Assembly: GCF_021088345.1 (NCBI RefSeq)
Contig: NZ_CP088156.1
Span: 3,658,001 to 3,722,000, forward strand
Direction: 5' to 3'
Length of the DNA stretch: 64,000 nt
Source of the DNA: Bradyrhizobium ontarionense
GTDB taxonomy: Bacteria > Pseudomonadota > Alphaproteobacteria > Rhizobiales > Xanthobacteraceae
Positions 3,592 through 21,666 of the stretch are shown piece after piece. Position 1 is the stretch's first letter. The number at the start of each line of letters is the position of its first letter. The translations under genes and the position numbers were made by a program. The notes under the pieces are model-generated. The model saw only the letters and a program-made list of their open reading frames with translations, made no database searches and had not been told where the DNA came from.

Positions 3592-5721
3592 ATGGTCGAC
3601 GTCACGGCGGGTCAGGGGACCGGGTCTCCGGCCGGCGGGTTCTCATTCGGCGATTTCAAGACGCTGGTCCTGCGCGGCGACATTGCGCTGGCGCTCGGCA
3701 TCCTCACCATCCTGGTGGTGCTGATCCTGCCGCTGCCTTCCGTCATCCTCGACCTGTTCCTGGCGATCTCGATCACGCTGTCGATCCTGATCCTGATGAC
3801 GGCGCTGTTCATCCAGACACCGCTGGAATTCTCCTCGTTCCCGACCATCCTGCTGATCTCGACGATGCTGCGGCTGTCGCTCAACCTGGCCTCGACCCGG
3901 TTGATCCTGTCGCGCGGCCACGAGGGCACCGACGCCGCCGGCCACGTCATCGAGGCGTTCGGCAATTTCGTGATGAGCGGCAATTTCGTCATCGGCATCA
4001 TCGTGTTCGCGATCCTGGTGACGGTGAACTTCGTCGTCATCACCAAGGGTTCGGGCCGCATCGCCGAAGTCGCGGCGCGCTTTCACCTGGACTCGATGCC
4101 CGGCAAGCAGATGGCGATCGACGCCGACCTCTCCGCCGGCCTGATCGACGAGAAGGTCGCCAAGGCCCGGCGCAAGGAGCTGGAGGACGAAAGCGGCTTC
4201 TTCGGCGCCATGGACGGTGCCTCGAAATTCGTCCGCGGCGACGCGGTCGCGGGCCTGCTCGTCGTCTTCATCAACATCATCGGCGGCATCATCATCGGCG
4301 TCGCCCAGCAGGGCCTCGGCTTCGGCGAGGCCGCGCGCACCTACACGACACTGACCGTCGGCGACGGCCTCGTCACCCAGGTGCCGGCGCTGATCGTCTC
4401 GACCGCGGCGGGCCTGCTCGTCTCCAAGGCCGGCGTCAGCGGCGCCGCCGACAAGGCGCTGATGAAACAGTTCTCCGGCTATCCGCAGGCGCTCGGCATG
4501 TCCGCCGCCGTCATGCTGGTGCTGGCGCTGCTGCCGGGCATCCCGACCATCCCATTCCTGGCGCTCGGCGGCGGCGCCGCGGCGCTGGCCTTCAAGGCGC
4601 ACAAGCAGAAGGACATCGTCCGGGCCGAGGAAGCGGCTGCCGCTGCCGCGCCCGCCGCCGCAGCCGCCACGGCCGCCGCCGCCGAGGAGCCGATCTCCAA
4701 CGCGCTCAAGATCGACGACCTCAAGATCGAGCTCGGCTACGCGCTGCTGCCGCTGGTCAACGCGCCCGACGGCACCGACCGGCTCACCGACCAGATCAAG
4801 GCGCTGCGCCGCTCGCTGGCGATCGAGATGGGTTTCGTGATGCCGTCGGTGCGCATCCTCGACAACGTCCAGCTCGAGGCCAACACCTACATCATCAAGA
4901 TCAAGGAGGTCGACGCCGGCTCCGGCAAGATCTGGCCGAACCAGTTCATGGTCATGGACCCCGGCGGCAACCAGGTCGCGGTGCCCGGCATCCACACCAC
5001 GGAGCCGACCTTCGGCCTGCCGGCCACCTGGGTCGACGCCGGGCTGAAGGAGGAAGCGACCTTGAAGGGCTACACGGTGGTGGACGCGGCAACCGTGCTG
5101 TCGACCCATCTGACCGAGCTGCTCAAGGCCAATATGAGCGACCTGCTCTCGTACGGCGAGGTGCAGAAGCTGCTGAAGGAGCTGCCGAAGGAGCAGAGCG
5201 AGCTGGTCAAGGACATCGTGCCGACCCAGGTCACCATCTCCGGCATCCAGCGCGTGCTGCAGCTGTTGTTGTCGGAGCGCATCTCGATCCGTGACCTCTC
5301 GACCATCCTCGAAGGCATCGCCGACGCACTCGCGTTCTCGCGCAATCCGGCTGTCATCGTCGAGCACGTGCGCGCCCGCCTCGCCCGCCAGATCTGCGCC
5401 CAGAACACCTCGCCGATGGGTTATCTGCCGCTGATCGCGCTGTCGGCGAAATGGGAGCAGGCCTTTGCGGAATCGCTGATCGGCCAGGGCGAGGAGCGCA
5501 GCCTGGCGATGCAGCCGTCGCGGCTGTCGGAGTTCATGACCGCCACGCGCGACGCCTTCGAGCGCGCCGCGCGCGAGGGCGAATCGCCGGTGCTGGTCAC
5601 CTCGGCCGCGATCCGGCCCTTCGTCCGCTCGCTGGTCGAGCGCTTCCGCGCCCAGACCACGGTGCTGTCGCAGGCCGAGATCCATCCGCGGGCGCGACTG
5701 AAGACGGTGGGGAGCGTGTGA
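3592..5721 (+). CDS. flhA: flagellar type III export membrane protein FlhA
   Basis: A 709-residue protein with the FlhA/LcrD architecture: about eight membrane segments in the first 320 residues, including PSVILDLFLAISITLSILIL, the conserved cytoplasmic loop with MPGKQMAIDADLSAG, an Ala-rich linker near residue 345, then a large cytoplasmic domain. FlhA forms the nonameric export gate that docks chaperone-substrate complexes. The frame is open upstream to a GTG at 3463, but the ATG at 3592 has a purine-rich GGAAGGGGCGAAA before it and gives the normal family length. Candidate CtrA sites lie upstream and a strong terminator follows. Confidence 0.95.
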   Translation: MVDVTAGQGTGSPAGGFSFGDFKTLVLRGDIALALGILTILVVLILPLPSVILDLFLAISITLSILILMTALFIQTPLEFSSFPTILLISTMLRLSLNLASTRLILSRGHEGTDAAGHVIEAFGNFVMSGNFVIGIIVFAILVTVNFVVITKGSGRIAEVAARFHLDSMPGKQMAIDADLSAGLIDEKVAKARRKELEDESGFFGAMDGASKFVRGDAVAGLLVVFINIIGGIIIGVAQQGLGFGEAARTYTTLTVGDGLVTQVPALIVSTAAGLLVSKAGVSGAADKALMKQFSGYPQALGMSAAVMLVLALLPGIPTIPFLALGGGAAALAFKAHKQKDIVRAEEAAAAAAPAAAAATAAAAEEPISNALKIDDLKIELGYALLPLVNAPDGTDRLTDQIKALRRSLAIEMGFVMPSVRILDNVQLEANTYIIKIKEVDAGSGKIWPNQFMVMDPGGNQVAVPGIHTTEPTFGLPATWVDAGLKEEATLKGYTVVDAATVLSTHLTELLKANMSDLLSYGEVQKLLKELPKEQSELVKDIVPTQVTISGIQRVLQLLLSERISIRDLSTILEGIADALAFSRNPAVIVEHVRARLARQICAQNTSPMGYLPLIALSAKWEQAFAESLIGQGEERSLAMQPSRLSEFMTATRDAFERAAREGESPVLVTSAAIRPFVRSLVERFRAQTTVLSQAEIHPRARLKTVGSV

Positions 5722-5770
5722 GGCGATGCCAACGCGGAACCGGCTGTTTGGCGGGACGTTGTTTCGCGAG

Positions 5771-5801
5771 GCCGGCGCGGGGCGCCGGCTTTGCCGTTTT
5801 T
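5771..5801 (+). terminator. rho-independent terminator after flhA
   Basis: Perfect 8-bp arms GCCGGCGC (5771-5778) and GCGCCGGC (5782-5789) with a GGG loop, followed by TTTGCCGTTTTT. It lies 50 bases after the flhA stop, so flhA is probably the last gene of its transcript. Confidence 0.75.
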
Positions 5802-6092
5802 CCGGGCACAGCGGCCTGTGCTTTACCGCCACAGGCAAACGATTTCTTAATTTTGCGTTAGGTGGCTGAATTTCCAGCCGTAGACCGAACATTGACTTAA
5901 ATAATTGATATTGAATGATAAATTACGAATTATCTGCATTCTTGTCGCGAAGCATCACGCCTTATCACGCCCTTGTGATGCGCCCTATGAAACAGAATCG
6001 CGGTTTCCTACGTTCTTCCATGCGAGACGATGAACCGGACGGAGCCCGGCTCACACGAATCAGCAGAGGCGGAAGGCGGCAGGAGGCTTCCC

Positions 6093-6293
6093 ATGAACCA
6101 CTCGATTTACAGCGCGGATCGGACCACCCACCTCAAGATCGTGGTGGTGGCACTCGTGGCTGGCATCGCAGTGGCCGGCCTCGGCATTTCCGCCCGTCTC
6201 AACGCGGACACCGGCTACACGCAAACCGCGAAGGTCATGAAGGCCGGCAAGCCGGTCGTGGTGACAAGCTCGGAGACGCCGCTGGTTCGCTAA
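6093..6293 (+). CDS. small single-pass membrane protein
   Basis: A 66-residue protein with a short polar start, one hydrophobic segment at about residues 14-33 (IVVVALVAGIAVAGLGI) and a short polar tail ending SSETPLVR. The ATG at 6093 has GGAGG 6-10 bases upstream, which decides the start over an ATG at 6030. Its own terminator follows. The upstream 190 bases are A/T-rich around 5890-5935 and could hold its promoter. No function is known to me. Confidence 0.65.
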   Translation: MNHSIYSADRTTHLKIVVVALVAGIAVAGLGISARLNADTGYTQTAKVMKAGKPVVVTSSETPLVR

Positions 6294-13615: not shown

Positions 13616-13843
13616 ATGACCAAACTGCTCGATCAGGCGCTCGCAGCCGTTCGCCGCCTGCCGCCCGAGACGCAAGACGAAATCGCGCGCGCGATGCTGA
13701 CGCTTGCCGGCGACGAAAGCGAGCCGGAAGAGATTGCCCCCTCGCATCTGCCGGACGTGCTGGAGAGCCTTGCGCAGGCCAAGCGCCGCCGGTTCGCAAC
13801 GGACACGGAGATCGAGGCCGCGTTTCGCCGCTTCGATCCGTGA
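13616..13843 (+). CDS. antitoxin of a ParDE-like pair
   Basis: A 75-residue acidic protein beginning MTKLLDQALAAVRRLPPETQ and continuing with DEIARAMLTLAG; this is typical of short rhizobial antitoxins found upstream of RelE/ParE toxins. The N-terminus would dimerise and bind DNA; the tail with EIEAAFRRFD would wrap the toxin. AAGGAG lies 8-13 bases before the ATG. The stop overlaps the GTG of the toxin frame in GTGA at 13840-13843, the usual coupled layout. Confidence 0.8.
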   Translation: MTKLLDQALAAVRRLPPETQDEIARAMLTLAGDESEPEEIAPSHLPDVLESLAQAKRRRFATDTEIEAAFRRFDP

Positions 13844-14134
13844 AGCTTCGCTTTACGCCCTCGCGCGGTCGAGAGCATCGCGGCGATCGCCGACGATATC
13901 CGCCTTCACAACCCTGCCGCTGCGCTACGCGTGCGCGCCGCGATCTACGAGAGCCTTCAGGACATCATCCTGTTTCCAAACGTCGGTCGTCCGCAACAGA
14001 CCAAGGGCGTCCGAAAGTTCGTAACGCCCAGATACAGCTATCTCATCTATTACACCGTTGACGATGGAGCGAACGAGATCGTGATCCTGAGCGTCAAGCA
14101 TCCAGCCCAACAGCGCGAACACGACGATGCTTGA
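13840..14134 (+). pseudogene. ParE/RelE-family toxin with a frameshift
   Basis: The GTG at 13840 starts KLRFTPS in one frame; the rest of the toxin (AVESIAAIADDIRLHNPAAA, then LRVRAAIYESLQDIILFPNV, ending HPAQQREHDDA) is in the next frame. The shift falls at about 13861-13868, where TCGCGCGGTC reads through only if one base is removed or two are added. The joined product would be about 97 residues, normal for a ParE mRNA- or gyrase-targeting toxin. Either the toxin is inactivated or there is a sequencing error in this GC repeat. Confidence 0.8.
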
Positions 14135-14248: not shown

Positions 14249-14917
14249 ATGTCCAAGCGCCTTGTCGCCGCCCCCCGCAACTTCCATCGACGCGCCGCCA
14301 CGCTGGTGACGATCTTCACCCTCGCGCTCGGCACCACTCATGACGCGAAGTCACAGAGTTCAAACCCCAATGCCATGCAGGGATTTGTGCAGAACCGCGA
14401 TCAGCCGATCCAGATCGAGGCTGATGCGCTCGAGGTGCGGGACAAGGTCAAGCAGGCCACCTTCTCCGGCAACGTGAAAGTCGTCCAAGGCGACACGACG
14501 ATGACGTCGAAGAGCCTCGACGTCTTCTACACGGCCGCGGCACAGTCCTCGTCCAGCGCGAGCGACGCAGCCAAATCCGGTCCGCCGCTGCAATCGGCCT
14601 CGCCCGGCCCCAGCGGCAGTTCCGCGATCAGGCGCCTGGAGGCGCGCGGCGATGTCGTCGTCACGCAGAAAGATCAGGTCGTCACCGGCCAGAGCGCGGT
14701 GTTCGACACCAAGACCAACCTGATCACCATGCTCGGCGGGGTGGTGGTGACCCAGTGCCGGAACGTGCTGCGCGGCGATCGCCTCCTGGTCGACATGACG
14801 ACGGGCGTGTCGCGGGTCGAATCCAACGGCAAGGTGACGGCGTCGGTCAATCAGTCGTCGGAGGCGGGGTGCGGAGCGCCGTCAGTCCCGCCGGGTCCCG
14901 CGTCGAAGAAGAAATAA
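14249..14917 (+). CDS. LptA/OstA-family periplasmic protein
   Basis: A 222-residue protein with a hydrophobic N-terminal segment (about residues 18-32) that acts as a signal or anchor, then the OstA/LptA repeat fold: QPIQIEADALEVRDKVKQAT, FSGNVKVVQGD, VVTGQSAVFDTKTNLI, CRNVLRGDRLLVDMTTG. LptA bridges the periplasm and carries lipopolysaccharide to the outer membrane. There is a Ser/Pro-rich insert near residues 95-120. No lptC, lptB or rpoN neighbours are seen, so this may be a second copy and not the main lptA. Confidence 0.8.
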   Translation: MSKRLVAAPRNFHRRAATLVTIFTLALGTTHDAKSQSSNPNAMQGFVQNRDQPIQIEADALEVRDKVKQATFSGNVKVVQGDTTMTSKSLDVFYTAAAQSSSSASDAAKSGPPLQSASPGPSGSSAIRRLEARGDVVVTQKDQVVTGQSAVFDTKTNLITMLGGVVVTQCRNVLRGDRLLVDMTTGVSRVESNGKVTASVNQSSEAGCGAPSVPPGPASKKK

Positions 14918-15175
14918 CGTAATAGGCCGCGCTCGCCTCACCCGGGTACGCCTGCCAAACAGCTCCGAAAGCACGCCTGATTTTGCGCTGCCGCAATCCG
15001 GGCGCCTGTCGCCCACAGAACACTCACCGCCTCCTCACGAGGACCGCTTTGAGTCGGTCGGGAAGCCCCTGGAGCCAATGCGATAGTAATGTGCACCGTG
15101 CTCTGGAATGATGCTCGTTCACTTCGTGAGAAGCTGGAGTCGGCGCAAAAAATGCAGCGCATAGGCCATGATCCG

Positions 15176-15730
15176 TCAATTGCTATAGCGACATAGCAAA
15201 TCGACCAAGCCGTCAACGTTTGATGGCATTTCAACATGCAGGGGCACGCCGATCTCGCGGCAAATCAGCTCAGCCTGGGCCACGGCCTCAGCTTGCACCT
15301 TGGCCAGAGCAGCAGCATCTTTTCGTGGCCGTAAACGAGATTGATCGTTAACGCGCCGCTTTTCAATTTCGTGTGGCTCTTCACGCAAGAAAATCATGAC
15401 TGCAAGTTCGAGAGCCGCGAAAACTTCCGGACCAATGAGGAAATGTTCTGTGTCTCGCTCGATCAGCGTATGGCTATCGAGAACCACAAGCTGGCTCGCG
15501 TGATTGATGGAGGCTTCTAGTCCGCGAACGAGAAGATTCTGATTTTCGTCCAAGTCAGAATACCGCAACTGATCTTGTGCTACGGTTTGCCCGAGCATAA
15601 TTGCACGGCCTTTTTTGATCAGAGACGATGCTTCCAAATGCTGGAAAGGCAGCCGAGGTGCGACGGCCACGAGCAGTGTCGACTTTCCTACACCAGACAA
15701 ACCCGTCAGTGCGACAATTTTCGGCCTCAT
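15176..15730 (-). CDS. P-loop NTPase, small kinase-like
   Basis: A 184-residue protein with Walker A GLSGVGKST at residues 10-18, a Walker-B-like VVLDSHT near 95, and an Arg-rich lid-like stretch RRVNDQSRLRPRKD. This is the layout of AAA_33/adenylate-kinase-like ATP-binding proteins. The substrate cannot be read. It is the last gene of a four-gene minus-strand module and overlaps the gene before it by 4 bases (15727-15730), so the two are probably translated together. The stretch is visibly richer in A/T than flanking genes. Confidence 0.7.
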   Translation of the reverse strand: MRPKIVALTGLSGVGKSTLLVAVAPRLPFQHLEASSLIKKGRAIMLGQTVAQDQLRYSDLDENQNLLVRGLEASINHASQLVVLDSHTLIERDTEHFLIGPEVFAALELAVMIFLREEPHEIEKRRVNDQSRLRPRKDAAALAKVQAEAVAQAELICREIGVPLHVEMPSNVDGLVDLLCRYSN

Positions 15731-16029
15731 GTTCGGAAACCCAAGTTTAACCGCGGCAGCAACGCGTCGAGTTGCAGGCGACGAATCTCAAATATCGACT
15801 GCGGCGGGTTCTCCGTCATCACTCCAAGTTCAATTAGCTCGGCAAGAGTAATAGGCGGATCAATATAGGCGGCCAATAGGTAGTTGATGACCTTGACAGG
15901 CCTCGCGGAAGTGGCCTCCCATTCTGCCAGCTCGGCCTCGCTGTAGACAGACCGCCCGCCGGCAAGGTGCATTAGCTCTTTTGTTGAATGCGCTGACTTA
16001 AGCTCTTCAAAAATTCCGACACTTGTCAT
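15727..16029 (-). CDS. small protein of unknown function in accessory module
   Basis: A 100-residue soluble protein, mostly helical by appearance, with no family I recognise. It ends LLPRLNLGFRT and overlaps the start of the NTPase gene by 4 bases. It follows the PIN-GNAT gene by 69 bases on the same strand. Tight coupling to the NTPase suggests it is that protein's partner or regulator. This is inference from position only. Confidence 0.65.
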   Translation of the reverse strand: MTSVGIFEELKSAHSTKELMHLAGGRSVYSEAELAEWEATSARPVKVINYLLAAYIDPPITLAELIELGVMTENPPQSIFEIRRLQLDALLPRLNLGFRT

Positions 16030-16098
16030 CGCTTGTGACGGTGGGTCGTCCGCCTTCCCTTTGTAGAAAAGTAGGAGAGAGCCTGGTGGCCCAAGATT

Positions 16099-17262
16099 TC
16101 ACGGTGCGCGGCAAAGGTAGACCTTGCGGATCGTATTGCCGGGCCGCTTAGGTCCCCCACCCGCACTGATCATTTCGAAGAGATCGGGTTCAACTGGGTT
16201 CCGCAAATCAGGATAGAGAGTGTCGTGGTATCCCTCTTTTATCGGCACGCCGAAAGCGCGGATTGGAGCGCTTGCGACGAAACGCGGGTAATGGAGCCGG
16301 TCCAACTCGAAGGTGGAAACACCCGTCACCAACTCAAGCCGATCGCGTGAGAACACTTTCTCGTAGATCAGCTCGCCGTCAGGCTTTGTCGCCGTGTGGT
16401 GAAAGCCGTAATATTCGAGGAGATCAATCAGTGCGACTTGCGTGTCATACGTGGTCAAGTAAACGAGTTCATAATTATTCGCCTGAGCGAACCAGAAGGC
16501 TTTTTTCAGCAAAAGCTCGCCGAGCTTCACGCCGCGCTTTTCCGGACGAACTTTGAATGTGCAGATCTTCAAGATTTTCGCAACCTTGGTGGTCGCGTCG
16601 GTGTTCGCCGCAGTCTCATCCTTTCTCACTATGAGACCGGCGAGGCCGTCGTCGAACACCGCCCAGCATTCGCGGTGCTCACGGACGCATTTCTCACGCC
16701 ACCAGATCTCGAAATCCGGATAGTCTTCTCGGAGACTCGCAAAGATGCTGTCGGTCAATTGGATTTCGTTTGCTGCCACCTCTTCGACGTAACGAAGAGG
16801 TGCTTCGACCGGTTCGTACGTTGTCTTAAGAAGCTGTACCGCGTCGGCGACGAACAGAACGCGTCGTCCTAGCTCTGGCGAGACGCGCCGTGCGCGCTCG
16901 TGGAGGCCCCTATCTTCTGTGACAAGAAAGTCGGCGGCGCTGCGATCAAGGGCATCTAAGAGCGTGGCATCGACCACGTCATTCGGCCGTTTTAAAACGC
17001 CGAACTTTTGCTCTAGCTGAGCTTGGGTGAGGCCCCGAACCTTCTTCAGGACTTGAAATTTTTCAAGCTTGCTTAGAGAGATGGCTTTACGCTTGGCATC
17101 CCGATCGCGGTACAAGTCATCGCGCGCGGCTTCGTGGACCATAATGTCCACTTTGTTCCGCGCCGCTACGCTCAGGAGCGCGGCGAACGCAGGCTGTACA
17201 GTTTTGTGGTCTTCAAGGCCGATGATGACGTTCGTATCAATAAGATACGTTTGAGTACTCAT
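16099..17262 (-). CDS. PIN nuclease domain fused to GNAT acetyltransferase
   Basis: A 387-residue protein with two catalytic domains. Residues 5-145 are a PIN domain: YLIDTNVIIGL with D9, E44, D98 and D117 (LVTEDRGL) supply the acidic metal-binding set. Residues about 165-305 are a GNAT domain with the acetyl-CoA loop VRPEKRGVKLGELLL and the following strand and helix DLLEYYGFHHT. The final 80 residues are unassigned. PIN domains usually cut RNA; GNAT toxins can acetylate aminoacyl-tRNA. I chose ATG 17262; an upstream start at 17325 would overlap the previous gene more. It overlaps the HTH-ASCH gene by 26 bases. Confidence 0.8.
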   Translation of the reverse strand: MSTQTYLIDTNVIIGLEDHKTVQPAFAALLSVAARNKVDIMVHEAARDDLYRDRDAKRKAISLSKLEKFQVLKKVRGLTQAQLEQKFGVLKRPNDVVDATLLDALDRSAADFLVTEDRGLHERARRVSPELGRRVLFVADAVQLLKTTYEPVEAPLRYVEEVAANEIQLTDSIFASLREDYPDFEIWWREKCVREHRECWAVFDDGLAGLIVRKDETAANTDATTKVAKILKICTFKVRPEKRGVKLGELLLKKAFWFAQANNYELVYLTTYDTQVALIDLLEYYGFHHTATKPDGELIYEKVFSRDRLELVTGVSTFELDRLHYPRFVASAPIRAFGVPIKEGYHDTLYPDLRNPVEPDLFEMISAGGGPKRPGNTIRKVYLCRAP

Positions 17263-18028
17263 CTTGGAGGGCCGTACGGAGGAGAGGTGTTGCGTAAAGG
17301 AACGATTGTGGAGGTTCGAAAGCAAATCTCTTGCGAAGTTCGTTCAAATCGATTGGGTGATTGAACGGTCGCACGTTCGTAAATCGAAGAGCAAAGCCGT
17401 ACTTTACCCCGGAAAAGTATTCATTGAAGCTGGTGCGCTCAATCTGCGCCATTTTGTTGAATTTCTTCCAAATATCGGCGACAGGTAGCTTTACAACCTC
17501 GGCGATTTCTGCACTGCCGACCATCGCTTGAATTGGGGATGTTGAGTAAATGTATGCGATCGTGCCGCGAGGCGCAGACACCGGAAACCGCCGCCGTAGC
17601 TCTACCGTCTTGATGCCCTGCATTATTTTGGTCGAGTAATTTGGACGAATGCTGAGAACGACATCGCGCTGCGCGCGGAACAGTTCATCGCCAAAAATCG
17701 GAAAGACAAGTTGGTCATCATCCTGCAGGTCGGCATCAAACGCACGCCCGATCGACAGCTCTGCAAGAGCCTTCGCCGAGAAGGTTGCTTCGATCCGTAA
17801 GGTAGCGCCGAGCGCATGGACATATTTTTGCAGGGACGAAATCTGGACATCGCCCCGGTTTTCAATTTTTGAGATCGCCGCTTGGCCTACTTCCAGTCGG
17901 TCTGCTAATTCCATCTGGGTGACGCCAGCCAGTTCGCGCAAGCTTTTCAGCGACTTACCTACGATTCTTCCAAGATCGGTGTTTTGCACGCGCACCGCTT
18001 TGACAACTTGTCCGGTCAGTTTGGGCAT
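17237..18028 (-). CDS. XRE HTH - ASCH domain fusion protein
   Basis: A 263-residue protein. Residues about 24-79 are a Cro/C1-type HTH (LRELAGVTQMELADRLEVGQ, AAISKIENR). Residues about 123-235 resemble the ASCH fold, with LSIRPNYSTKIMQG and the signature G138-I-K140-T-V-E143-L-R145. ASCH domains bind RNA or modified nucleosides. It starts the module and its stop lies within the PIN-GNAT frame, so it could be the repressor or antidote. Two inverted repeats lie just upstream (18034-18047, 18066-18083). No identical combination is known to me by a standard gene name. Confidence 0.8.
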   Translation of the reverse strand: MPKLTGQVVKAVRVQNTDLGRIVGKSLKSLRELAGVTQMELADRLEVGQAAISKIENRGDVQISSLQKYVHALGATLRIEATFSAKALAELSIGRAFDADLQDDDQLVFPIFGDELFRAQRDVVLSIRPNYSTKIMQGIKTVELRRRFPVSAPRGTIAYIYSTSPIQAMVGSAEIAEVVKLPVADIWKKFNKMAQIERTSFNEYFSGVKYGFALRFTNVRPFNHPIDLNELRKRFAFEPPQSFLYATPLLRTALQDEYSNVSY

Positions 18029-18033
18029 CGAGA

Positions 18034-18083
18034 CTCCTTTATCGGAGATGTATCAAAGACTTGATTATTCCGTAAAGGGAATA
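18034..18083 (-). promoter_or_regulatory. inverted repeats before the HTH-ASCH gene
   Basis: TATTCC-N6-GGAATA spans 18066-18083 and CTCC-N6-GGAG spans 18034-18047, overlapping the ribosome-binding region. Small HTH regulators of such modules commonly bind repeats like these to repress their own operon. The assignment is by position and symmetry only. Confidence 0.4.
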
Positions 18084-18473
18084 TTCGATCGTTGGACGTT
18101 TTCTAGTAAAGCGTTCCGCCTCTGGGCGGTCAGTCTCCTTCTTCGTCTGCTTGCGGCCCGCGGAGGTCTTGGCCGCCGCGGCGGCTTTCTTTGGGGCCTT
18201 CTTGGCGGTCTTGGCCGATGTCTTGGCAGGCGTCGTGTTTGCGGGTGGCTTCTTGGCCAGCTTGGTGGTTCCGGTGGGCTTCGCGGGCTTGCTCGGCGCC
18301 AGAGTTGCCTCAGCCGCGCCGCCGCCCCCCGCCGCCGACAGCCAGAACCGCAGCTCCGGCGATTTCTCCTCATTCCTTTTGATGTGGCGTTCCTGCCAGG
18401 AGTCGTCGCCCTGCAGCGGCTTGCCGAAGATATCGGGGTGCGTCTTCAGCAGCCAGCGCCAGTCGACTTCGCG
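18039..18473 (-). pseudogene. fragment of the phospholipase D-like gene
   Basis: The frame reads WRWLLKTHPDIFGKPLQGDD, then SWQERHIKRNEEKSPELRFW and an Ala/Lys-rich tail, closely matching the C-terminal part of the intact gene at 19056-21281. An in-frame TAG lies just before it (18474-18476) and there is no start, so both catalytic motifs are lost. After about 18105 the frame runs into the promoter region of the HTH-ASCH gene. The break suggests a second PLD gene truncated when the module arrived, or a partial duplication. Confidence 0.75.
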
Positions 18474-19055: not shown

Positions 19056-21281
19056 TCACCGCCTCTTCTTCACGGCGCTCTTCCTGGCCCGCTTGGTGTT
19101 CTTCGCAGCCTTCTTCGCGACCTTTTTGCTTGTCTTCGCTTTCGCCTTCTTCGCCGCGACGGTCTTCTTCTTGGCGGCCTTCGACGCCTTCTTGGCGACC
19201 TTCTTCTTGGTCGTCTTCTTGCGGCCGGCCGAGGTCTTCGCTGCTGCGGCGGCCTTCTTCGAGGCCTTCTTGGCGGGCTTTGTCGGCGTCTTCGCCTTGG
19301 TGGTCCCGGCCTTGGCCGGAGTCTTCGCAGCGACCGTCTTCGCCGGTGCGGGCTCTGCGGGCGCTGGCTTGGGCGCGCTGACGCTGGCCGGCGATTTCGC
19401 CGGCTTCTTCTTTGCGGGAGCCGTAACGCTCGATTCAGCCACGGCGCCGCCGCTGCTCTCGCCACCGGTCGCGCCCTTCGCCGCCGCCGACAGCCAGAAC
19501 CGCAGCTCCGAGGACTTCTCCTCATTCCCCTTGATGTAGCGCTCCTGCCAGGTGTCGTCGCCCTGCAGCGGCTTGCCGAAGATCTCCGGATGGGCCTTCA
19601 ACAGCCAGCGCCAGGCGTAGTGGTCGTAGAGGTCGAGGACGTGGCAGGCATAGGCCTCGCTAAGGCCGCGATGGCCGCGGATGATCAGCATGTTCTCGTC
19701 GTTGTTGTGCGAGGCGCGGAAGCCGAGATTGTGCGAGCCGGTGACGACGACGCAGTCGTCGCTGAACGGGTCGATCACCACGATCTTGTTGTGGATGATG
19801 GCGAAGCCGTATTTGGCGAGTTCGCTCTCCCACTTGCCGAAGGCGTCCTTCACCGCGCCGGCCGGCACGCCGCGGAAATCGATGCTGCCCTTGTCGCCAG
19901 GCTTCTTCGGCGTGCCGGATTCGCCGACCACCTTCACCTCGGGTGTCGCTGCGGCGTCCGTCGCATCCCCGCCCTCGTCCGCGCCGTCGGTGTGGCCGCC
20001 CGAATGCAGCGCCGCCGAGAAGTTGGTGGCGCGCACCGGGCTCGTCAGCGCGCCGCGCACGAACAGATCCGGCTTGTCCTTGAGCAGCTGTCCGGCGACG
20101 TCCAGGATCGAGTTGTTGCCGGGATCGAAGGCCAGGAACAGCACGGCGTGCTTCGCTGCCCGCATCAGTTCGAACACGCGGCCCATGTCATCCGGCGTCG
20201 TCGGATTTTTGCCGAGCTTGCCCTTGGTGTTCGGCGAGAACATCGGCTCGATGGTGACGCCATGGCCGAGATCGATCGGAGATGTGATCGAGGATTCGTT
20301 GTTGGCATGGGCGAAGTCGCGCAACGTCTGCGACTGCAGCTTCGTCTTGTCGCCATCGGCGGCGTCGACGTCGGCCTTCAGCGCGGTCCAATACGACAGA
20401 TAGCGCTCGGCCAGCTCTGGGCTCTCGACCACCAGCGCGTTGTTGGTCTGGGTGCACAGGCCGGTCGAGGTCCAGTTGGTCGAGCCGGAGAGCACCGCGG
20501 TCGGTTTGCCTTTCTCGGTCAGCACCATGAACTTGTTGTGCGGGATGCTGCCTTTGCCGAGGATGCGGTCGATCACGTCGACGCCGGCGGCCTTCAGCGC
20601 CGCGCGGTTCTTGGCATCGGCGTCGTCGCTGTCCGGCGCCTGCTCGTTGCCGAGGATGACAATGCGGCTGTTCGGATTGTGCTGCAGCTGCTTCTCGAGC
20701 CCGTTGGGATCGTTGAGCTCGTACAGCGCGGCATGGATGGTGCCGCCGCCGTCGTCGGCGCGCTTCAACAGCGAGGTCAGCCCCTCCTGCAGCTGGCCCA
20801 TCAGGCGGATGCGGATCGGATCGGCGGGATCGAGGATGTGCGGCGCCAGCGCCGGCACGCTGGGGTGATCGTTCAGCGCGTGGCTGAGCGCCTGGGTCGC
20901 GGTGATGCCGCGGTTGAAATAGGCCTGGAACGGCGGCCGGTCCGGGGTCAAGGTGACGTCGTTGCTCTCCAGCGGCGCGACACCGGCGAGTGGCGTCAGC
21001 GGCTGTCCGGGCACGCCGCCCATCGGCACGATGCGATACCGATAGGTGCGGCCGCGCCTGGCGAAGAGATCCTTCCACCAGAACTTCTGGATCGGTGCCT
21101 GCTCGGTGGTGAGCTTGTCCGCGGTCTGGCCGGCAAAGCGTGCCAGTGCCGGCAGCACGGTGTCGGTGTTGGCGGCGACGTCGATCTGGTGAATGGCGAA
21201 GCCGAGGCAGCCGTCGAGACGGCGATCGAAGGTCCAGGCGACGACGGCAATGTCGTTGTTGGAAAATGCAAGCGCGGGCAT
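19056..21281 (-). CDS. phospholipase D-like protein with Lys/Ala-rich tail
   Basis: A 741-residue cytoplasmic protein. Two HKD-type motifs are visible: HNKFMVLT at residue 248 followed by SGSTNW, and HNKIVVID at residue 497 followed by TGSHNLG. The first has Thr where the motif normally has Asp; the second is complete. The last 160 residues are PAKKA/KKAAAAAK repeats resembling histone H1 or bacterial H1-like proteins, and may bind DNA or other polyanions. ATG 21281 is preferred because AAGGAG lies 8-13 bases upstream; the open frame before it crosses repeats. Substrate could be phospholipid or nucleic acid. Confidence 0.8.
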   Translation of the reverse strand: MPALAFSNNDIAVVAWTFDRRLDGCLGFAIHQIDVAANTDTVLPALARFAGQTADKLTTEQAPIQKFWWKDLFARRGRTYRYRIVPMGGVPGQPLTPLAGVAPLESNDVTLTPDRPPFQAYFNRGITATQALSHALNDHPSVPALAPHILDPADPIRIRLMGQLQEGLTSLLKRADDGGGTIHAALYELNDPNGLEKQLQHNPNSRIVILGNEQAPDSDDADAKNRAALKAAGVDVIDRILGKGSIPHNKFMVLTEKGKPTAVLSGSTNWTSTGLCTQTNNALVVESPELAERYLSYWTALKADVDAADGDKTKLQSQTLRDFAHANNESSITSPIDLGHGVTIEPMFSPNTKGKLGKNPTTPDDMGRVFELMRAAKHAVLFLAFDPGNNSILDVAGQLLKDKPDLFVRGALTSPVRATNFSAALHSGGHTDGADEGGDATDAAATPEVKVVGESGTPKKPGDKGSIDFRGVPAGAVKDAFGKWESELAKYGFAIIHNKIVVIDPFSDDCVVVTGSHNLGFRASHNNDENMLIIRGHRGLSEAYACHVLDLYDHYAWRWLLKAHPEIFGKPLQGDDTWQERYIKGNEEKSSELRFWLSAAAKGATGGESSGGAVAESSVTAPAKKKPAKSPASVSAPKPAPAEPAPAKTVAAKTPAKAGTTKAKTPTKPAKKASKKAAAAAKTSAGRKKTTKKKVAKKASKAAKKKTVAAKKAKAKTSKKVAKKAAKNTKRARKSAVKKRR

Positions 21282-21404
21282 GGCGGCACTCCTTGTCTGA
21301 CAAGGAATATGTCGCGGAGTTGTAACAAGGGTTCGACACATCCGATACAGGAAAGGGATGTGGCGTGGGTCGCGAGGGTGGATGGTGCGGTGCGGGAGGG
21401 CCAG

Positions 21405-21500
21405 TGGCTCGACCGGCTCGGTGCTCACCCGCCCCTGGAGGGGGAGGGTCGGCTCACATGAGCGAAGCGAATGGGAGCCGGGGTGGGGTGACAGACCATC
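21405..21500. repeat. short G+C-rich intergenic repeat
   Basis: CACCCGCCCCTGGAGGGGGA, then GGGTCGGCTCACATGAGCGA and GCCGGGGTGGGGTGACA. It is related to the other GC-rich dispersed copies but carries the CATGAGCGAAGC centre that the shorter copies lack. Confidence 0.55.
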
Positions 21501-21666
21501 CGCGCGCGGTGTCAAGTGAGGCGAGGCCGATGCTGACGTGGAGGACCGCCCTGATAGATCGCGCGCTTGGCTTCACCCCGCCGCGCGCTGCGCACGCGCC
21601 GCCCCTCCTCCTTTAGGCAGGGCGATCGCGTATGGCGGTCTACGCGTTGCGCCTGTCTGTTTCCAC

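Follow-up and report, generated by a model that had tools for sequence, protein, structure and literature searches.

The 64,000-nucleotide stretch of the Bradyrhizobium ontarionense genome analysed here (contig NZ_CP088156.1, positions 3,658,001 to 3,722,000; hereafter the window) carries, on the minus strand, a new, broken copy of an operon type that had already been predicted (Bell et al., 2020; PMC7641849). The module consists of three genes, which encode a protein joining a helix-turn-helix (HTH) to an ASCH domain, an effector of the PIN-GNAT-EVE type and a P-loop NTPase; the effector gene is interrupted by one TGA codon. An earlier note on this DNA had counted four genes. Its four frames lie where it had placed them, all on the minus strand, with overlaps of 26 and 4 bases and a gap of 69 bases, but its PIN-GNAT protein and its coupled small protein are the two parts of one 511-codon gene split by the TGA. 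With moderate confidence, we regard the locus as a horizontally acquired (PIN)-GNAT-EVE/HTH-ASCH/AAA_17 operon, named PDC-M11 in PADLOC, the intact form of which would be an autoregulated defence module of toxin-antitoxin type. The most useful new fact is a conserved palindrome in front of the HTH-ASCH gene.

The effector gene (15727–17262) is one reading frame: translation of 17262–15727 gives 511 codons, of which codon 388 (16099–16101) is a TGA, and no other stop before the normal end, and a genome search with the effector likewise showed one TGA inside the match at this locus. Upstream of the stop, the PIN-GNAT frame (17262–16099) encodes 387 amino acids from the ATG at 17262 (the open reading frame as listed starts at an earlier TTG). 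Downstream, in the same reading frame and 24 codons away, lies a 100-amino-acid frame (15727–16029), which overlaps the NTPase gene by 4 bases as the PIN-GNAT frame overlaps the HTH-ASCH gene by 26. Two profiles are divided between these parts. The PADLOC profile PDLC04421 (PDC-M11A) matches the PIN-GNAT frame with its positions 3–373 (E = 1.6e-92) and the 100-amino-acid frame with its positions 395–477, and phrog_10674 matches them with its positions 1–388 (E = 1.8e-167) and 415–511 (E = 8.1e-29), respectively. The profile search that the earlier note had proposed for the 100-residue protein thus gave no match in Pfam and, in PADLOC and PHROG, the ends of effector profiles. The same frame aligns with the end of an intact relative, P0001, with 88% identity, and its ATG corresponds to an internal residue of the relatives.

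Relatives of the effector were examined as the best 120 of 1385 database matches, scoring being restricted to the 7995 candidates that shared most words. The top match is 511 amino acids long and 94% identical to effector residues 1–387. Among the 120 listed relatives, 115 are single proteins of at least 500 amino acids, five are shorter than 500, and every one of the 120 has a sense codon at position 388. Because there is a single frame with one TGA, split profile matches and full-length relatives, the module has three genes and not four; frame continuity, the profile ends, the P0001 alignment and the relatives rule out the small protein as a separate gene, and the effector gene is a pseudogene in this genome, which is an 8.44-Mb single contig. 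It is extremely improbable that four working genes exist, with the 100-residue protein translated alone and completing a naturally split effector. The fragment does retain an ATG and an open frame, one other well-conserved position being changed in it; this sits poorly with the relatives just described and with the internal position of that ATG, and the split would cut a predicted beta-barrel. No clear ribosome-binding site precedes the fragment, a weak argument, since the two frames that overlap upstream genes equally have none; AAGGAG is present at 18034–18039, directly before the HTH-ASCH ATG. At 232 columns conserved in 95% or more of the listed relatives (with the variation among relatives calculated from 60 of the 120), the window differs at three, one of them the stop, and so few departures indicate that the break is recent.

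The PIN domain of the effector occupies residues 6–118 (16909–17247) and the GNAT domain residues about 171–290 (16393–16752). In Pfam, Acetyltransf_1 was above its cut-off (E = 3e-5) and PIN_3 slightly below (E = 3.4e-5). The acidic PIN residues D9, E44, D98 and D117 are all present in the window copy; D9, D98 and D117 were found in 120 of the 120 listed relatives and E44 in 117. Residues R243, G244, K246 and G248 of the presumed acetyl-CoA loop were found in every one of the 120 and in the window copy. A structure model of P0001 (mean predicted local distance difference test score, pLDDT, 75.8; predicted template modelling score, pTM, 0.54) showed a GNAT fold at residues about 154–306 in VIA-align 2, whose match list was full of GNAT folds, so that the remaining domains were hardly probed by it. 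Foldseek matched the model to ZmASCH (template modelling score by target 0.79, residue range not printed), a match that we read as the predicted C-terminal barrel. A search of PDB sequences with the effector alignment gave no match up to an E value of 1. The EVE-like (EVE/PUA-like) C-terminal region is encoded on either side of the TGA, with the 100-amino-acid frame as its remainder, and matches the end of the PDC-M11A profile; its name rests mainly on Bell et al. (2020), because Pfam only hints at EVE. The domains named in the earlier note (HTH-ASCH, PIN-GNAT and P-loop NTPase) were found by Pfam, and this third effector domain was overlooked.

The available text of Bell et al. (2020; PMC7641849) describes (PIN)-GNAT-EVE operons with ASCH partners, an HTH-ASCH fusion in alphaproteobacteria and often an AAA_17 ATPase, predicts toxin-antitoxin or defence roles for them and credits Iyer et al. 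with an earlier description. Domains, partners, HTH-ASCH fusion and AAA_17 are the same in the window; the differences are that the window copy is interrupted, that the functions given there are predictions and that the palindrome goes unmentioned, the words operator, palindrome, inverted repeat and autoregulation being absent from that text. It was the only direct description of the gene set that was recognised in a literature search. The module also corresponds to the phage-defence candidate PDC-M11 of PADLOC, as PDC-M11A and PDC-M11B both match it; PDC-M11 differs in having no model for the NTPase, whose best PADLOC match is mad3 (E = 2.5e-4). The literature search found no paper under the name PDC-M11; the available part of PMC11514479 uses the PDC label, and that of PMC12839542 mentions ASCH and GNAT in other systems. 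The earlier note, which knew of no named system with this exact set, is thereby superseded on this point. Its guess of a toxin-antitoxin or defence-like module was a fair one in view of the PADLOC candidate, the prediction of Bell et al. and relatives in viruses, phages and plasmids, and it missed the broken state.

A related pair carries functional names in a phage record. In Escherichia phage PhiR47_2 (GenBank PV340567), a GNAT-only relative is annotated as the toxin GevT and its ASCH neighbour as the antitoxin GevA. The GNAT and C-terminal parts of the effector and the overlapping ASCH gene are homologous to those of the window module; the phage pair differs by the lack of PIN and HTH, by a toxin gene that precedes the antitoxin gene and by an identity of only about 28%. 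No NTPase was detected near it in the 8.6 kb read.

The gene neighbourhood is conserved. Forty genome loci were collected via two short patterns in the GNAT/linker region, which misses copies lacking both. An HTH-ASCH gene or its remnant lies directly upstream of the effector in 40 of the 40, and an NTPase gene adjoins the effector in 31, on the same strand in 29 and convergently in two, both from Pseudomonas; adjacency here includes remnants (a split HTH-ASCH in L032, a short one in L035 and an 88-amino-acid NTPase piece in L039, the last among the 29), and a fused NTPase piece in L041 was scored as absent. The possibility raised in the earlier note, that the adjacency is accidental, was not borne out. 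All three genes were found in eight of eight loci on viral contigs, with the NTPase gene convergent in four and another gene order in two; in one of them, L100, the effector is split. A convergent NTPase gene was seen in L013, L042 and L095–L098 (Pseudomonas and some viral contigs), and the link between effector and NTPase is thus independent of a single operon.

The distribution is sparse. Effector matches were found in 6/195 genomes of the genus, three with PIN and three GNAT-only (the window's own is counted), and NTPase matches in 6/195, one of them a weak match that the family profile did not confirm; ASCH is adjacent at all six genus effector loci and the NTPase at five. In wider samples, effector matches were found in 9/397 genomes of the order, where one match covers just the C-terminal part, and in 4/385 genomes of the class; both counts include the window genome. 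At 10 of these order and class loci, a number that excludes the window's own (L082) and L087, whose coordinates put it at the contig position of L041, ASCH is adjacent in nine and the NTPase in seven. Effector matches were present in 23 plasmid records, 17 of them over at least 80% of the length, and in 12 phage records, where those over 80% of the length are two records of one phage. In the archaeal phage psiM100 (L056, 4545–7837), the effector relative ORFD starts inside an 'inserted fragment IFa' annotated by the depositors and overlaps the ASCH relative ORF5, which lies just beyond IFa; no NTPase was detected in this locus. At L090 (1081–2007), the effector C-terminal domain is joined in frame to a stretch that resembles, by eye, part of a signalling kinase; neither ASCH nor NTPase was detected there, and the locus is perhaps a chimeric remnant.

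In most loci examined, the HTH-ASCH gene is preceded by a palindrome of roughly the form AATATTCCTTGNNAGGAATATT, the outer bases of which vary. Its core, ATTCC-N6-GGAAT, was free of mismatches in 28 of 36 discovery loci (the set in which upstream DNA was first compared, with the window scored apart) and in 13 of 18 held-out loci, versus 4 of 938 background blocks (blocks starting at 4801–6099 were excluded; true sites elsewhere stayed in). The upstream length was 260 nucleotides for 16 of the 18 held-out loci and the background, and 150 nucleotides for the discovery loci and the other two held-out ones. The remaining discovery loci had one mismatch (one locus), two (five) or four (two), and the remaining held-out loci one (L014), two (L086), three (L032) or four (L035 and L044). 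Judging by coordinates and scores, five or more of the held-out loci are apparently near-duplicates of others (L010, L046, L096, L097 and L098), and 8 of 13 were exact without them. In the window, the palindrome is exact (18067–18082, no strand), lies 38 bases before the HTH-ASCH start codon, is the only copy in the 64 kb and is one of five sites in the genome. A conserved palindrome before the first gene is what one would expect of an antitoxin operon that regulates itself; judged from sequence, it is likely the autoregulatory operator, which HTH-ASCH would bind and thereby repress its own operon.

The HTH-ASCH gene (17237–18028, 263 amino acids), the first of the module, matches HTH_3 (E = 1.3e-8) and, slightly above the cut-off, ASCH (E = 4e-4) in Pfam, as well as PDC-M11B (E = 1e-31) and phrog_11553 (E = 4.8e-93). 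Its product is likely both the repressor and the antitoxin. A different proposal, which we consider rather unlikely, is that HTH-ASCH is a second effector (an RNase or deacetylase) and that the operon is a two-effector or regulatory one, possibly with a housekeeping role in RNA. Its ASCH domain matches ZmASCH (PDB 5guq; E = 4.1e-34), the nearest ASCH with a solved structure, which the available text of PMC5615036 reports as an RNase for single-stranded RNA, and the positions corresponding to its Y47, Q127 and S128 are invariant across 25/25 sequences. Against this, the equivalent of K53, a cleft residue like Y47 and S128, varies and the phage PhiR47_2 pair is annotated with ASCH as the antitoxin. 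The match covers no HTH part in the ZmASCH chain. In the N4-acetylcytidine amidohydrolase YqfB, the nucleophile is T24 of a Lys-Thr-Glu set (PMC6972931, available text); the Lys21 and Arg26 equivalents are retained in HTH-ASCH, whereas the T24 position is a Glu in 25/25 sequences, an alignment that rests on a common short motif because the two match only weakly overall (9% probability in hhalign). The idea that ASCH is a YqfB-like eraser of acetyl marks was rejected on account of this replacement. The occurrence in 6/195, 9/397 and 4/385 genomes ill suits a housekeeping role.

The NTPase gene (15176–15730, 184 amino acids) matches AAA_17 (E = 2.3e-14), and its database matches include Bradyrhizobium proteins. 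The best PDB match of the NTPase family profile is a designed nanoparticle chain (9cm0, E = 1.7e-17). The profile also matches archaeal adenylate kinases (1nks and 1ki9) at about 1e-14, and a P-loop, a D-x-H motif and an arginine-rich lid are present in the family; the NTPase nevertheless scores 43.9 bits against an NCBIfam adenylate kinase cut-off of 155. By sequence comparison, it appears to be a distant relative of the archaeal adenylate kinases.

Broken effectors are found elsewhere. Besides the window copy, five of the 40 genome loci have a split or truncated effector (L032, L035, L038, L040 and L041), and in five of these six copies, all except L032, the break falls at residues about 374–413, the GNAT/EVE junction. 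In L040, effector residue 382 is followed by what looks, by eye, like a transposase frame; L041 has a deletion that fuses its effector to what is left of the NTPase, and the HTH-ASCH of L035 is shortened. The clustering was noticed post hoc in a small sample, and the recurring breaks at the junction are an unexplained observation. Given this frequency of broken effectors, it is unlikely that the gene is intact and owes its TGA to an error in sequencing or assembly, even though the TGA is the sole lesion found and the catalytic residues and overlaps are retained. It is very improbable, too, that a PIN-GNAT protein without the EVE-like domain is a functional variant, or that readthrough of the TGA occurs in certain conditions. 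The five breaks at the junction do spare both PIN and GNAT, in this small, post hoc sample; however, a stop at this codon occurs in none of the 120 listed relatives, and the other damage in L040, L041 and L035 suggests decay. The window copy would yield at most a truncated PIN-GNAT protein lacking the C-terminal domain, and the overlapping NTPase gene is likely to be translated less efficiently; with both, the system is probably off. We conclude that the window copy was broken recently and is probably inactive as a system.

The module differs in composition from its surroundings. Its GC (guanine plus cytosine) content by kilobase is 52–55% in 15001–18000, versus 62–65% in the four kilobases before and 60–66% in the four after, in agreement with the A/T-richness claimed in the earlier note. 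GC at third codon positions (GC3) is 0.52–0.63 for the module frames versus 0.87 and 0.86 in two flanking genes. In other genomes of the genus, two of three places fetched (L079 and L081) contain both flanks, separated by about 3.1 and 0.4 kb when counted from where the match ends, with no DNA matching the module between them; at the third (L080), the far side shows a short match only. The module is compositionally foreign, and we hold, with the same moderate confidence as for the operon as a whole, that it was horizontally acquired. The broken gene that the earlier note had placed next door is confirmed: 18134–18227 (94 bases, 81%) and 18329–18465 (137 bases, 89%) repeat end parts of a PLD-like gene (19056–21515) and are the remnant of a duplication of that gene. 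Also near the module, an LptA/LptD_N-type gene lies at 14249–14917 (PF03968, E = 1.9e-22), with a second LptA-like copy, 79% alike over the core, at G000:C1:5140543-5141004. At 13616–14134, a 75-amino-acid frame accompanies a ParE-toxin-like frame (PF05016, E = 2.9e-7) that opens at a TGA (13841) and has no ATG, GTG or TTG until 13931, perhaps a second damaged toxin-antitoxin pair.

In the reading that we favour, the conserved palindrome would be bound by HTH-ASCH, which would repress the operon and restrain the effector. The effector of a working copy would be guided by its EVE-like domain to a nucleic acid that bears a mark or modification, or to tRNA; GNAT would acetylate this target and PIN would cut RNA, so that infected cells are stopped; the adenylate-kinase-like NTPase may be an accessory that tunes the response to the nucleotide state. 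Intact copies may have an anti-phage or stress role and would act in toxin-antitoxin fashion. Several points weigh against this reading. The exact palindrome is missing in 8 of the 36 discovery and 5 of the 18 held-out loci, and the NTPase was not counted in 8 of the 40 genome loci, two of them decayed (L040 and L041), while one further locus ends close by. Pfam hinted at EVE, below its cut-off, in four of seven distant relatives, and gave no sign of it in 18 close ones; comparison of the effector with the EVE protein of the same genome gave no usable match, and this route to identifying the domain was dropped. The reported RNase activity of ZmASCH means that ASCH might be an effector and not an antitoxin. 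In its available text, Bell et al. (2020) describe all of the modules as uncharacterised at that time; no paper on GevT/GevA was found, these names being the depositors' annotation, nor were toxicity, antitoxin or phage data for members that contain PIN. Finally, a PADLOC scan at 1e-3 of seven neighbouring proteins, its whole scope, found no defence genes, and the neighbours were set aside as a defence island.

A more elaborate mechanism is conceivable, although we think it doubtful. The intact operon would be a mark-triggered switch, in which one and the same modified nucleotide of an invader is read by two PUA-superfamily domains, ASCH in the repressor and the EVE-like domain in the toxin; this mark would simultaneously lift HTH-ASCH off ATTCC-N6-GGAAT and guide PIN-GNAT to its target, while the NTPase would gauge the nucleotide state. 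If this were true, the breaks at the GNAT/EVE junction would reflect selection against the guided toxin, with the rest left standing.

As a locus of this genome, the module is an ordinary decaying mobile module. Its analysis corrects a split gene that had been misread as a fourth component and assigns the locus to a predicted, hardly tested family. For this family, whose role is conjectural, the operator, the ZmASCH match and the likeness to adenylate kinases offer simple test points.

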